Of a DNA stretch of 5,723 nucleotides, positions 961 to 5,723 are shown in pieces; positions within the stretch are counted from its first letter, which is position 1; each line of letters opens with the position of its first letter. Source of the DNA: Bacillota bacterium (GTDB lineage: Bacteria > Bacillota_E > Sulfobacillia > Sulfobacillales > Sulfobacillaceae); NCBI GenBank assembly GCA_021820645.1, contig JAKADJ010000171.1, forward strand, positions 1-5,723. The letters run 5' to 3'. The notes beneath the pieces were generated by a model that saw only the letters and a program-made list of their open reading frames with translations, was not told the origin of the DNA and made no database searches. The translations under genes were made by a program, and so were the position numbers.

Positions 961-2145
961 TTAGCTCCCTGTCGATGAGACCTTGCCTTTTAGGGATTGG
1001 ATTAATGCGGTCCGCCCAATTAGCCCCTGGTGGTACCACAGGATGCGACCCATCGCAGACACCAGCACTTCGGTGGGGAGTCCGACCACCCCATAGGCAT
1101 CAGAAATATCCCCCGTGGCGTCCAGCGCCACGGGATAGGGAATGTGGGACTCGGCCACATAATGGACCACGTGAGCGGTGGACGTTTCCGATAGTCTTAA
1201 ATCCACCCCGACCACGGTGGGTAGATGATGCGTCTTCGCATAACCTTGATACGACTTCAATACGGGTATTTCTTCTTGGCAGTCGGGGCACCACGAGGCA
1301 AAAAAGTCTAACAATACCGGTTTCCCACCTTGTCCCACTTTCAAAGAAGCCAAGTGTCCTCCCGGATAAATGGTTTGTGCGGTAAATGGGTGGCGATGTT
1401 GGGTAGGTCCTAGGTTTCCGGCCAAGTAAGTCAACTCGCGTGCTGCAGGAAAGCGCGTGAGTGGCGGATGGCCTGGTAAGAGCGGCGTCACATGCACCAA
1501 CAAATTATGCACTTCCGCAGACAGCACCGGTTGATTACCTACTGCCGCATTGATGTAAAGCCAGCGTTCTTGCCCCGTGGGACTAATCACCACCACGGCC
1601 GGAATATGCTGGACTAAATCTCCCTTAAGAACCTGGGTGGCTACGTAGTACGAGGACCAGACCTTTTTGAGAGCCGTTGCTGATCCCGTGACATATTGCC
1701 AACGGTTCAACATGGCGTGGCTCTTAGACCAAGCATAGACGTCCGCCACACTGGTAGCCACCGGGTTAGCATTGACGGCCACGAGCTCAAGGTTCTTTTT
1801 ATAGGAACCCAGGTCGTGCTGCAGATTCTTTAAGACCACCGCCGTCAAGGGACACACGGTCGTGCACTTGCTATCGATGAACGTGAGGACCACGACTTTG
1901 CCTCGGAACTGCCTTAAACTGACTGTCTGGTTAAACTGATTGGTCAAGGTAAAGTTTGGAGCGACGCGCTTCAAGGTCACGCCCGGGTCCACATTGGCGG
2001 CCACTGACGACAGTTGGCTTATCGACGTCGGCAGATGGTTCGCCTGGGGATGCCACCCGCTCACCACGCGATAGGTCCCGATCACCACCCCGGCCAACAA
2101 CACCATGAGGCTCCCGAGTATCATGAGATTACGCAATTTAGGCAT
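961..2145 (-). CDS. Membrane-anchored SCO1/SenC-like and TlpA-like thioredoxin fusion protein
   Basis: A 394-residue two-domain extracytoplasmic redox protein. Basic residues Lys3 and Arg5 precede a membrane anchor at about 7-25, placing the rest outside the cytoplasm. The first domain (about 60-205) is SCO1/SenC-like: APNF near its start, a Cys-x3-Cys-Pro motif (Cys94, Cys98) where SCO proteins bind Cu, and His180 in a QHIPAVVVISPTG segment matching the third SCO copper ligand. A His/Pro-containing linker follows (about 220-262). The second domain (about 263-390) is TlpA/ResA-like: active site WCPDC (Cys286, Cys289) and the cis-Pro loop GLPTEV (Pro357). SCO proteins load copper into the CuA site of cytochrome oxidase; TlpA proteins reduce cysteines of SCO and CuA. 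One chain holding both may reduce and metallate a client. The gene lies 15 bp after ccdA, the likely electron donor. The frame extends to a GTG at 2154, but the ribosome site fits only the ATG at 2145. No lipoprotein Cys is seen. Confidence 0.9.
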   Translation of the reverse strand: MPKLRNLMILGSLMVLLAGVVIGTYRVVSGWHPQANHLPTSISQLSSVAANVDPGVTLKRVAPNFTLTNQFNQTVSLRQFRGKVVVLTFIDSKCTTVCPLTAVVLKNLQHDLGSYKKNLELVAVNANPVATSVADVYAWSKSHAMLNRWQYVTGSATALKKVWSSYYVATQVLKGDLVQHIPAVVVISPTGQERWLYINAAVGNQPVLSAEVHNLLVHVTPLLPGHPPLTRFPAARELTYLAGNLGPTQHRHPFTAQTIYPGGHLASLKVGQGGKPVLLDFFASWCPDCQEEIPVLKSYQGYAKTHHLPTVVGVDLRLSETSTAHVVHYVAESHIPYPVALDATGDISDAYGVVGLPTEVLVSAMGRILWYHQGLIGRTALIQSLKGKVSSTGS

Positions 2146-2150
2146 GCTAT

Positions 2151-2158
2151 TCACCTCT
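2151..2158 (-). promoter_or_regulatory. Ribosome binding site for the SCO/thioredoxin fusion gene
   Basis: The minus strand reads AGAGGTGA, with GAGGTG ending 6 bases before the ATG at 2145. The alternative GTG start at 2154-2152 lies inside this site and has no usable Shine-Dalgarno of its own, so the site decides the start in favour of 2145. Confidence 0.75.
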
Positions 2159-2160
2159 AA

Positions 2161-2844
2161 TCAAATGAGGCCCACATGGAGTCCCGGCCCGCCAATCCAG
2201 TACCATAAAAGATAAAAACTCGCCGCAACCATCACCACGGCACTTAACTTGTGGATGCTCGGAATCACGGCCTCAATCAGTCGCTCGGCCAGAGCCCGCG
2301 CCTCGACCGTGATTAGAGAAAGCCCCGTCACGATGATGCCCATGCCGAAGGCAAAGACGACATAACGGATGAGGCCCACCAGGATCCCCTGATGAAATCC
2401 CACAGCGTCAACGGCCAAGAACACGGGAAGACTACAGGTTAAAGACACCAGTCCGTAACTTAACCCATAAAGAAAAAAGGGCCATCGTCCCCCTGGTCCA
2501 CTCCACCGCTGAACGCGAGCCGGAAGGCCCCAAAAGCCCGGGCCAACCCCTTTCCCCCGCCATAGAGCTACCGCCATGCCTAATAACAAAAGCGCCATCA
2601 ACATCGAGGTGACCGGGGCTAGAATAAATAAAATCCGCCCCAGGCTCGCCACGATGATACCAGCCAGTCCAAACAATACCACGAACCCTGCCGTCATCGC
2701 TAGACCCGCGCTTAACCCCTTGAACCAGGTGGCTTCTTGGCCCTGGCGGGATAATAGCAAAGCCAAGTAACTTGGCAAAAGGCCCACTCCACATGGATTA
2801 AAGGCGACCACCATGCCAGAAGATAACGCCAACAATACTCCCAT
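2161..2844 (-). CDS. ccdA: CcdA-type transmembrane thiol-disulfide electron carrier
   Basis: A 227-residue polytopic membrane protein of the CcdA/DsbD transmembrane family. These proteins pass electrons from cytoplasmic thioredoxin through two membrane-embedded cysteines to extracytoplasmic thioredoxin-like proteins. The diagnostic NPCG motif is in the first helix (Cys18), with a Pro at 24. The partner cysteine is Cys137 in a TCSLP segment, starting the symmetrical second half. About six hydrophobic segments are visible (roughly 3-31, 43-67, 70-95, 123-145, 152-180 and 195-217), with a basic loop near 96-121. The length is typical of CcdA, without the extra domains of DsbD. The frame reaches back to a GTG at 2883, but the ATG at 2844 has a near-perfect Shine-Dalgarno sequence and places the NPCG helix at the N-terminus as in the family. 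It lies 41 bp after the NifX-like gene and 15 bp before the SCO/thioredoxin gene, whose thioredoxin domain is its likely partner. Confidence 0.88.
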   Translation of the reverse strand: MGVLLALSSGMVVAFNPCGVGLLPSYLALLLSRQGQEATWFKGLSAGLAMTAGFVVLFGLAGIIVASLGRILFILAPVTSMLMALLLLGMAVALWRGKGVGPGFWGLPARVQRWSGPGGRWPFFLYGLSYGLVSLTCSLPVFLAVDAVGFHQGILVGLIRYVVFAFGMGIIVTGLSLITVEARALAERLIEAVIPSIHKLSAVVMVAASFYLLWYWIGGPGLHVGLI

Positions 2845-2885: not shown

Positions 2886-3209
2886 TTATAGGGCGGCCAC
2901 AACTGTCTTGGCCATCCCCTGGACCCCCAGATGCAGTTCCAAATGCATGCTGTGCAGCATATGTTCCATGCCATGACCCATGTGCTGAGCCGCCACATCG
3001 GTGACCTGATGATCCATCAAAAACTTAGCGACTCGGGCATGATGTTGTCCTTCACCGCTCTGCCCGTGCAGTACATCCCATCCTACCGGGTATTCCTCCC
3101 AGGATTCTATTCTCCCCTCGTCCACTGTCGCAATCGCGACTTTGGGTGCCTTGCCCCAGCGCGGTTCGACCGCTCCTTTGTCATCAATCGGAATACAAAT
3201 CGTGCGCAT
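2886..3209 (-). CDS. NifX/NafY-type (dinitrogenase Fe-Mo cofactor family) protein with a His/Met-rich helix
   Basis: A 107-residue soluble protein with the small alpha/beta fold of the NifX/NafY/NifB C-terminal family (Nitro_FeMo-Co domain). Family features are the N-terminal strand RTICIPID, the loop VEPRWGKAPKVAI (residues 14-26), HHARVAKFL (56-64), a VTDVAA strand (69-74) and a final LHLGVQG turn (about 92-98). Nitrogenase members bind iron-sulfur or Fe-Mo clusters. Many stand-alone members occur in organisms without nitrogenase and are uncharacterised, and no nif gene is seen here. The oddity is residues 76-93, which hold six His (76, 79, 83, 86, 89, 93) and four Met (77, 81, 84, 88), suggesting metal or heme binding. 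The only cysteine is Cys5. AGGGAGG precedes the ATG with 7 bases of spacing. The gene sits between the hydrolase (46 bp upstream) and ccdA (41 bp downstream), probably in one transcript. Domain assignment is firm; function is unknown. Confidence 0.85.
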   Translation of the reverse strand: MRTICIPIDDKGAVEPRWGKAPKVAIATVDEGRIESWEEYPVGWDVLHGQSGEGQHHARVAKFLMDHQVTDVAAQHMGHGMEHMLHSMHLELHLGVQGMAKTVVAAL

Positions 3210-4304: not shown

Positions 4305-5723
4305 TCACCGGACAAAAATCAGGATGGCGAGGCACGCTAAGACCACGGCCCCCAGGTAAAACCCGTCTTTGGGCTTGACCGGAGTGTCCAAATAATAGGT
4401 GCGGCCTTTGGGGTCATGCGCCACTCGGCCCCGAAAGCCGCGACTCTCCATGGCCACCGCCACCCTCTCCCCAATACGGATGGCCTGGGTCAATAAGGGT
4501 AGGGCATAGGTGACCACCCGGGTAATGGGAGAGCGCTTGCCGTCTTTACCACGCAAGTGACGAGCCTGCCTAAGCTTATTCCACTCTTCCTCGAACAACG
4601 GAAACACCCGGATTCCCGCCAGACTGCCATAGCTAAATTTCGGCACCACTTTAAAGTTACGAGTCAGACTCACCACGAGCCCGGTCACGTCGGTCGTGGA
4701 CACATACACCACGCCAAAGGCCACGGACGCCAACATGCGGAATGCGAGCACCAGGCCGTTATGAAGCCCGACCCAGCTCAGACGAAACCACAGGAACCAC
4801 ACGGTGGGAGTGTGGGGACCCACCCGGGAATAGGCGGTGAGAGTCCAGGTGTATAAGGCGAAAAAAAGCACAAAGGGCGCCATGCGTTTGACAATCTGCC
4901 ACGGCGTCATCCGAGCCCCGAAGCCCATTAATAGCACCGGAATCACGCCTAACAGCACCCCTTGCCAGATGTGGGTCGCAAAGATCGACAGCATCATGAC
5001 TAAGATGGTGGCGACCAATTTAATGCCGGGGTTGAGCCGGCCTAAAAACGATTCGGATTGGCGACGGTCGACTTGAATAAATCGTGGCTTGGGTGCCGCC
5101 GCCATCGATTCTGGGGTCCGGGAATCGGCCCCGACTAAAAGCTTCGCTTGGCGCATGAGATCCGGCTGACGGTATAAGTGCTGAGGACTTCCATCAAAGA
5201 GAATTTTGCCATCGACCAGCACAATGACCCGGGTAGCGTGCCCCCACACCAGGTCCATATCGTGGGTGGTCAAGACGACGGCGCGGCCTTCTGTCTGAAG
5301 CCGCTCGAGCCGTTCGACAATTTTCTTCTGCGTGCCGGCATCCTGACCAAATGTCGGTTCATCGAGTAAGTAGGCGGCATGAGGATCTCTCACCATCACC
5401 GCCACCGAGAGCCGACGCTTTTGACCTTGACTTAACGCAAAAGGGCTCATCTCCGCATGCCCCGTTAAGTAAAATTCCTCCAAGAGATCCGTCACCTCAT
5501 GCGGAACCTCTCCCCCAACGTAGCGATTGGCTAATTCATCAATGACGCGTTCATAGATGAACTGATGTTCGGGGTTTTGAAACCCAAAGGCGATGGGGAT
5601 CGGCATTTCGGGTGACGGAGGTGGGATCTTGACCGTACCCTGGGTCGGCTTCTTAATCCCGGCTAAAAGACTTAGCAACGTAGATTTTCCCGATCCATTG
5701 GGCCCCACAATCGCGACAAATTC
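4305..5723 (-). CDS. ECF transporter fusion: ABC ATPase plus EcfT membrane domain (N-terminus outside window)
   Basis: The visible 472 residues hold most of an ABC ATPase followed by an EcfT-type transmembrane coupling protein, the energising module of energy-coupling-factor vitamin/metal importers. Numbered from the window edge, the ATPase shows Walker A GPNGSGKST (7-15), Q-loop FQNPEHQ (48-54, typical of EcfA), signature LSQGQ (97-101), Walker B YLLDEP (118-123) and the switch His154. A linker (about 195-222) leads to the EcfT domain, opening RLNPGIKL, with about five membrane segments and both coupling motifs, ARHLRG (387-392) and AMESRG (424-429). A last helix ends the protein. The GTG at 5708 is not the start: the frame continues to the edge with EFVAIV, the normal strand before Walker A, so at least 25-30 residues, or a whole extra ATPase domain, are missing. 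ABC and T subunits are usually separate proteins. No substrate-binding S component is in view, so the cargo is unknown. Confidence 0.92.
   Translation of the reverse strand, partial: EFVAIVGPNGSGKSTLLSLLAGIKKPTQGTVKIPPPSPEMPIPIAFGFQNPEHQFIYERVIDELANRYVGGEVPHEVTDLLEEFYLTGHAEMSPFALSQGQKRRLSVAVMVRDPHAAYLLDEPTFGQDAGTQKKIVERLERLQTEGRAVVLTTHDMDLVWGHATRVIVLVDGKILFDGSPQHLYRQPDLMRQAKLLVGADSRTPESMAAAPKPRFIQVDRRQSESFLGRLNPGIKLVATILVMMLSIFATHIWQGVLLGVIPVLLMGFGARMTPWQIVKRMAPFVLFFALYTWTLTAYSRVGPHTPTVWFLWFRLSWVGLHNGLVLAFRMLASVAFGVVYVSTTDVTGLVVSLTRNFKVVPKFSYGSLAGIRVFPLFEEEWNKLRQARHLRGKDGKRSPITRVVTYALPLLTQAIRIGERVAVAMESRGFRGRVAHDPKGRTYYLDTPVKPKDGFYLGAVVLACLAILIFVR

Follow-up and report, generated by a model that had tools for sequence, protein, structure and literature searches.

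A 5,723-nucleotide stretch of DNA, hereafter the window, encodes on its minus strand a polypeptide in which a SCO domain is joined to a TlpA/ResA-type thioredoxin domain, and directly upstream of it a CcdA-like membrane protein. The pair would most simply act as a CcdA-fed disulfide reductase of the cell envelope with a tethered SCO copper site, serving CuA assembly, copper stress, or both, a reading to which we assign a probability of roughly 0.55. Judged by gene order across the family, the partner of CcdA is the reductase half of the fusion, and the copper site is optional.

Domain architecture of the fusion

The open reading frame spans positions 961 to 2154 of the minus strand (397 amino acids) when read from an in-frame GTG. 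Of the two candidate starts, the ATG at 2145 (394 amino acids) is likelier than the GTG at 2154, because AGAGGTG lies just 5' of the ATG, and the GTG itself lies inside AGAGGTG. Counted from the ATG, the residue numbers of a first-pass annotation of this DNA (Cys94, Cys98, His180, Cys286, and Cys289) are exact; from the GTG, the same residues are 97, 101, 183, 289, and 292. That annotation had placed a membrane anchor, a SCO domain, and a TlpA domain on one chain, and profile, fold, and alignment evidence agree with it (Table 1). The WCPDC motif and cis-proline that it had read in the TlpA domain correspond to the aligned Cys286 and Cys289 and to Pro357, a cis-Pro candidate.

Table 1. Features of the fusion gene and its upstream neighbors (positions in the window)
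Feature	Position	Strand	Basis
SCO-TlpA fusion gene	961..2145	-	394 aa from ATG; single intact ORF
N-terminal membrane anchor helix, residues 2-30	2056..2142	-	Model helix 2-30; hydrophobic sequence
SCO domain, residues 56-222	1480..1980	-	PF02630, 53.2 bits; Foldseek ScoI 4wbj, TMt 0.79
Cys94, candidate SCO copper ligand	1864..1866	-	Alignments
Cys98, candidate SCO copper ligand	1852..1854	-	Alignments
His180, candidate SCO copper ligand	1606..1608	-	Alignments
Linker, residues 223-253 (pLDDT <50 at 242-248)	1387..1479	-	Model
TlpA/ResA-type thioredoxin domain, residues 254-392	970..1386	-	Redoxin/Thioredoxin_8; StoA and ResA, TMt ~0.85
Cys286 of WCPDC	1288..1290	-	Alignment
Cys289 of WCPDC	1279..1281	-	Alignment
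Pro357, cis-Pro candidate (GLPTE)	1075..1077	-	Alignment
CcdA-like membrane protein, 227 aa, sequence-divergent	2161..2844	-	Homologues, invariant cysteines, locus surveys
CcdA-like Cys18 (FNPCG)	2791..2793	-	Invariant in 16 aligned sequences
CcdA-like Cys137 (LTCSLP)	2434..2436	-	Invariant in 16 aligned sequences
NifX-like (Nitro_FeMo-Co) protein, encoded immediately upstream of the CcdA-like protein	2886..3209	-	PF02579, 31.9 bits

Taken alone, the SCO half scores 53.2 bits against SCO1/SenC (PF02630), above the curated cutoff of 22.8 bits, and 45.8 bits against AhpC-TSA; the CxxxC motif and distal histidine that mark SCO1/SenC proteins are aligned at Cys94, Cys98, and His180. The second half matches the Pfam families Redoxin, AhpC-TSA, and Thioredoxin_8, and combines a thioredoxin fold with CxxC and the cis-Pro candidate, as TlpA/ResA/StoA-type proteins do. 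Over the whole fusion, AhpC-TSA reaches 86.1 bits versus 52.9 for SCO1/SenC because it matches both halves. The NCBIfam scores lie below the cutoffs for ResA (78.4 versus 170 bits) and StoA (68.3 versus 210 bits), and by these profiles the second domain is related to ResA and StoA without being classed as either protein proper.

An AlphaFold2 model built from 81 sequences (mean pLDDT, 87.6; pTM, 0.60) consists of an anchor helix (residues 2 to 30) and two thioredoxin-type domains, at about residues 56 to 222 and 254 to 392, joined by a linker that is in part modeled with low confidence; the relative placement of the two domains is unsure at this pTM. Foldseek searches of the PDB returned SCO proteins as the best matches (ScoI, 4wbj; BsSco, 1xzo), followed by ResA and StoA. 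Query-normalized TM-scores among the best 50 rows range from 0.27 to 0.34, so each structural match spans about one domain.

The first-pass annotation would have fallen if the first domain were a plain peroxiredoxin. Such a domain, fed by the TlpA domain, would make the fusion an envelope peroxide scavenger comparable to the ScsB-TlpA-PprX chain of Caulobacter, a design described in PMC5403849, and AhpC-TSA does match this half. However, SCO1/SenC outscores AhpC-TSA on the isolated domain, the ten best structural matches are all SCO proteins or the SCO-like Aquifex protein aq_2194, and the CxxxC motif with His180 is of the SCO type; we reject a plain peroxiredoxin and regard peroxide scavenging as very improbable. 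A frameshift or false join of two genes near positions 1350 to 1500, the other way in which the fusion might have been an artifact, is ruled out by numerous fused relatives of the same length and by low dN/dS in both domains. Compared with two near relatives, dN/dS is 0.03 to 0.06 for the SCO domain and 0.06 to 0.11 for the TlpA domain, with dS near saturation for one of the two relatives. Both modules are intact and slowly evolving in the lineage of the window.

The CcdA-like gene and its neighbors

The stop codon of the CcdA-like gene lies 15 bp from the ATG of the fusion, and its product carries the two membrane cysteines near prolines that are typical of CcdA/DsbD proteins (Cys18 and Cys137). 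An earlier claim of a CcdA gene at this distance with both cysteines thus holds for spacing and residues; what the window protein lacks is a CcdA profile match of its own. It has no Pfam match at E values up to 1, PF02683 included, and no NCBIfam match at E values up to 0.01; its predicted fold, a weak model with a pLDDT of 76.5, has no Foldseek match at E values up to 0.001, and a profile search of PDB sequences recovered no CcdA. We call the protein CcdA-like because it matches no CcdA profile and is placed through its relatives. The copy at locus L001 matches DsbD_TM (PF02683) at 34.1 bits (cutoff, 27.1), PF02683 is found in 31 of 111 homologues, and several homologues are named CcdA; among the 16 aligned members, one matches PF02683 and two match DsbD_2. 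One CcdA homologue (P0202) carries a heavy-metal-associated domain (PF00403).

The gene order of the window, including the NifX-like gene, is retained on short contigs of 5.4 and 10.2 kb in two near relatives, genomes G137 (84.5% DNA identity over 5.4 kb) and G014 (73 to 74%). The NifX-like protein may be a member of the operon and a metal binder; its C-terminal part contains a His/Met-rich patch, AAQHMGHGMEHMLHSMH, that is mostly retained in the two relatives. Farther along the minus strand, a single open reading frame at 4305 to 5723 combines an ABC-type ATPase with a CbiQ-like component of an ECF-type transporter. The window contains no copper-export gene and no oxidase gene.

CcdA accompanies the reductase site

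Of 24 loci encoding fusions of the WCPDC type, 22 have a CcdA-like gene as the immediate upstream neighbor in the same orientation, at nearly the same rate whether the SCO site is intact (14/15) or damaged (8/9). The two exceptions are L136, which is at a contig edge, and L152; at L148 the CcdA-like gene is split over two frames. Ten other CxxC-bearing fusions have no such gene upstream, and one of them (L109) has it directly downstream. None of 41 CxxC-less fusions has its own CcdA-like gene within flanks of up to about 1.5 kb; the divergent CcdA-like gene near one of them, L166, belongs to the adjoining WCPDC fusion L150. Repeating the survey with two canonical, Pfam-confirmed CcdA queries and five others left the result unchanged, and canonical queries found no CcdA in 16 wider CxxC-less regions of 10 to 18 kb. 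CcdA therefore follows the reductase site, being present in 22/24 WCPDC loci irrespective of the state of their SCO site versus 0/41 CxxC-less loci. The proposed two-gene unit survives as a pairing of CcdA with a TlpA domain of the WCPDC type; neither fusion in itself nor the copper site predicts the gene. Whether ccdA always adjoins the fusion has a divided answer: in 22 of 24 WCPDC-type loci it does, and none of the 41 CxxC-less loci has one of its own.

This linkage is also what a general CcdA-dependent thiol reductase would leave behind, one resembling ResA or StoA and active, for example, in cytochrome c maturation, with the SCO domain mostly a structural or docking part. The CxxC motif and CcdA-like gene stay when SCO ligands are lost, and in 11 SCO-damaged WCPDC proteins the SCO domain retains a mean identity of 52% to that of the window (66% in 37 SCO-intact ones). 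However, separate pairs of a thioredoxin-like protein and a canonical CcdA (clusters 8 and 9) occur in five regions, and thus in some, if not all, of these genomes; Pfam matches confirm two of the pairs, in G195 and G211. As the SCO site of the window lineage is intact and its domain slowly evolving, we consider this general role quite unlikely.

Family distribution and separate absence of the two sites

The fusion is found repeatedly among Firmicutes of the Sulfobacillus, Ferroacidibacillus, and Alicyclobacillus types. Full or partial relatives were found in 24 of 121 genomes sampled from the class of G001 (E value, 1e-60), in 25 of 42 from the order of G003, Sulfobacillus benefaciens (1e-50), and in 17 of 59 from the order of G002, Ferroacidibacillus organovorans (1e-50), the three samples overlapping. 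The fusion had been called unusual, and within its own group it is not rare. Among 296 genomes sampled from a different phylum, that of G008, a search with an alignment of mostly CxxC-less fusions gave one match at 1e-60, to the SCO half and with an internal stop. A scan of genome contigs (the best 80 of 246 relatives, in 585 stretches) gave mostly TlpA-half matches and served only to find starting genomes. In G006 to G008, a SCO match and a TlpA match adjoin as separate matches, plausibly representing the unfused state.

A protein search recovered 527 relatives at an E value of 1e-10 or better, and we examined 120 of these together with the window protein. Among these 121 proteins, both sites occur in 42 (including that of the window), the SCO site without the TlpA CxxC motif in 64, and CxxC with a damaged SCO site in 15; no protein is devoid of both. 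A count of 77 locus open reading frames of at least 350 amino acids, which leaves out shorter frames and the duplicate loci L001 to L003 and L005, gave 22 with both sites, 12 with CxxC only, 41 with the SCO site only (including the longer and distant L091 and the identical L112 and L113), and 2 with neither, namely, the divergent L168 and a partial frame at L107. The CxxC-less SCO fusions (type B, e.g., L089) share the two-fold architecture and an intact SCO site with the window protein but have neither the TlpA cysteines nor a CcdA-like gene of their own, and they often occur in genomes that also encode the WCPDC type. A fusion-like fragment in G210 (L163, C3:44318-44833) with an internal stop and damaged SCO cysteines adjoins a CcdA-like gene with both cysteines and is apparently a decaying copy. 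Four SCO-like proteins of 562 to 570 amino acids (L272 to L275, in G003, G079, G143, and G057) carry the motif DPVCW(W/L)DCP.

Across a 116-row tree, the state of the TlpA CxxC site changes once and that of the SCO site 10 times, one of the latter being L168, which like L091 sits on a very long branch. Two rows scored as damaged are a gap at the histidine column (L126) and the loss of one cysteine only (L150). The tree was built by a quick method with the active-site columns excluded and is unrooted, so that it does not distinguish gain from loss. Loss is the simpler reading, since the residues found in place of the active-site residues in the alignment are mostly Gly, Ser, and Asp.

Because the active sites of the two modules have been lost separately among relatives, the modules probably have separable jobs in copper handling. 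The first-pass annotation had instead supposed that the fusion lets one domain reduce the other, or a client of both, and in its strict form this would make reduction of Cys94 and Cys98 by Cys286 and Cys289 of the same polypeptide the reason for the fusion. Such a relay has a precedent in the crystallized TlpA-ScoI mixed disulfide (4txo), and both of its sites are intact in the 42 proteins counted above. The family does not require it, however: one site is missing in 79 of the 121 proteins, and the two domain matches stand side by side in G006 to G008. An obligate relay in cis is disfavored because either site is separately absent in most of the family, and we regard it as unlikely.

Copper genes and oxidases around the fusion

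In regions of 5 to 18 kb with Pfam-verified seeds, CsoR, CopA, or both were found at 10 of the 15 WCPDC loci whose SCO site is intact, at 1 of the 9 with a damaged site (L185, CsoR), and in none of 16 CxxC-less regions; in the last group, CtaG is near four and COX2 near two (one weak). The 10 regions around other CxxC-bearing fusions have CtaG near two, CsoR and CopA near one, and COX2 near one. The five SCO-intact WCPDC loci without copper genes comprise four contigs of 5.4 to 10.2 kb, including the near relatives of the window, and one 15-kb region (L175). The association of copper genes with SCO state has a Fisher P value of 0.013 over all 24 WCPDC loci with relatedness ignored; a value of 0.0009 is biased by the post hoc removal of the four short contigs without copper genes. 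Allowing for relatedness leaves three to four independent pairs, which tend in one direction but are not significant. Of the 24 WCPDC regions, 8 (L172, L173, L176 to L179, L183, and L186) encode a DUF4396 membrane protein close to the fusion, and all eight also have CopA.

These neighborhoods bring a second setting into view, in which the CcdA-like protein and the fusion would form a copper-stress device of the Scs kind, chiefly repairing or preventing wrong disulfides driven by copper in the envelope, while the SCO site would act as a copper sensor or buffer and oxidase assembly would be secondary or absent. Besides the contrast between 10 of 15 SCO-intact WCPDC loci and none of the CxxC-less regions, csoR, copA, ccdA, the fusion, and DUF4396 follow one another on one strand at L172, L177, L178, and L179, and thiol oxidoreductases including DsbC and ScsC are described as protecting against copper (PMC5403849). 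However, there are no copper genes in the window or, within the reach of their contigs, in its two near relatives, and none in the 15-kb region of SCO-intact L175. We give this reading a minority share, less than the favored one but not a negligible one. The copper link proposed earlier is thus supported by the neighborhoods of relatives (CsoR/CopA) and not by that of the window itself.

Oxidase genes speak for CuA assembly in part of the family. At least one COX2 with CxxxCxxxH was found in 23 of 24 genomes searched, and G141 had no COX2 match. WCPDC fusions are the only SCO-family matches in 3 of 14 SCO-intact genomes (G014, G137, and G141), a weak absence given that genome completeness is not stated, and G014 and G137 both encode CuA-type oxidase subunits. 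It is in these two genomes that the fusion most likely takes part in CuA assembly, because the fusions are the sole SCO proteins found there and CuA-type subunits are present. Among nine genomes with an SCO-damaged fusion, seven hold another intact SCO. The other two, G116 and G211, whose completeness is likewise not given, have no other SCO found although CuA-type COX2 is present, which suggests that CuA does not necessarily depend on an SCO site.

Relation to known systems and proposed role

The separate functions are established elsewhere: copper binding by SCO proteins and electron transfer from CcdA to ResA and StoA (PMC9145763, PMC6696091). As described in PMC9145763, CcdA reduces ResA and StoA and might reduce Sco, and TlpA is a reductant of Sco that also holds apo-subunit II in the reduced state. 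One of the closest likenesses is to Bradyrhizobium TlpA and ScoI, a thioredoxin reducing a SCO protein and apo-subunit II (PMC9145763), which are separate proteins, whereas the window encodes one chain with an adjoining CcdA-like gene. In Bacillus, CcdA supplies electrons to ResA and StoA, whose TlpA-type domains lie on the outer side of the membrane, and StoA and ResA are the top fold matches of the second domain; these systems have no SCO domain, and their reported clients are cytochrome c (ResA) and spore cortex synthesis (StoA). Bacillus subtilis Sco (YpmQ) and other SCO1/SenC proteins share the CxxxC...H SCO domain and membrane attachment but have no second reductase domain. The Scs proteins ScsB and ScsC pair a DsbD/CcdA-type transporter with a thioredoxin fold in copper defense (PMC5403849), and the fusion pair may work alike; they have another domain set without SCO, and we do not assign the pair to Scs. 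We found no description of a SCO-TlpA fusion in the titles and abstracts of the open-licence literature searched, and by term counts SCO1, SenC, and TlpA are absent from the main text of two Sulfobacillus genome papers.

In the favored reading of a CcdA-fed reductase with a tethered copper site, electrons would pass from cytosolic thioredoxin to Cys18 and Cys137 of the CcdA-like protein and on to the WCPDC motif of the TlpA domain, by analogy with CcdA and ResA/StoA. The TlpA domain would then reduce thiols that need to be free for copper binding outside the membrane. Candidate clients, modeled on TlpA with ScoI and CoxB, are the CxxxC motif of the fusion's own SCO domain, in cis or between copies, and the CuA cysteines of oxidase subunit II. 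Copper stress would be an additional or alternative setting in relatives with copper-export neighbors, since in these the ccdA-fusion pair sits among copper-export genes. These Firmicutes are acidophiles that live with much dissolved copper. More tentatively, the pair may constitute a distinct Gram-positive copper-redox module, uniting electrons from CcdA with an extracytoplasmic copper site on a single anchored protein and placed in many relatives within CsoR/CopA clusters. In such a module the copper site would have been repeatedly and independently dropped while the reductase was kept, and the family would alternate between a metallochaperone-reductase and a plain reductase.

It is debated whether SCO proteins of bacteria carry copper, reduce thiols, or do both, and the one from Streptomyces lividans is reported to act as a copper chaperone and to have no thiol reductase activity (PMC3603459), in keeping with the two domains of the fusion sharing the work between them. 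Within one family, nature has separated the sites into proteins with both, with the copper site only, or with the reductase site only, sometimes in one genome. Because one scaffold occurs in all three states, and with a CcdA-like gene that follows the reductase site, the question of carrier versus reductase would become testable within a single family.
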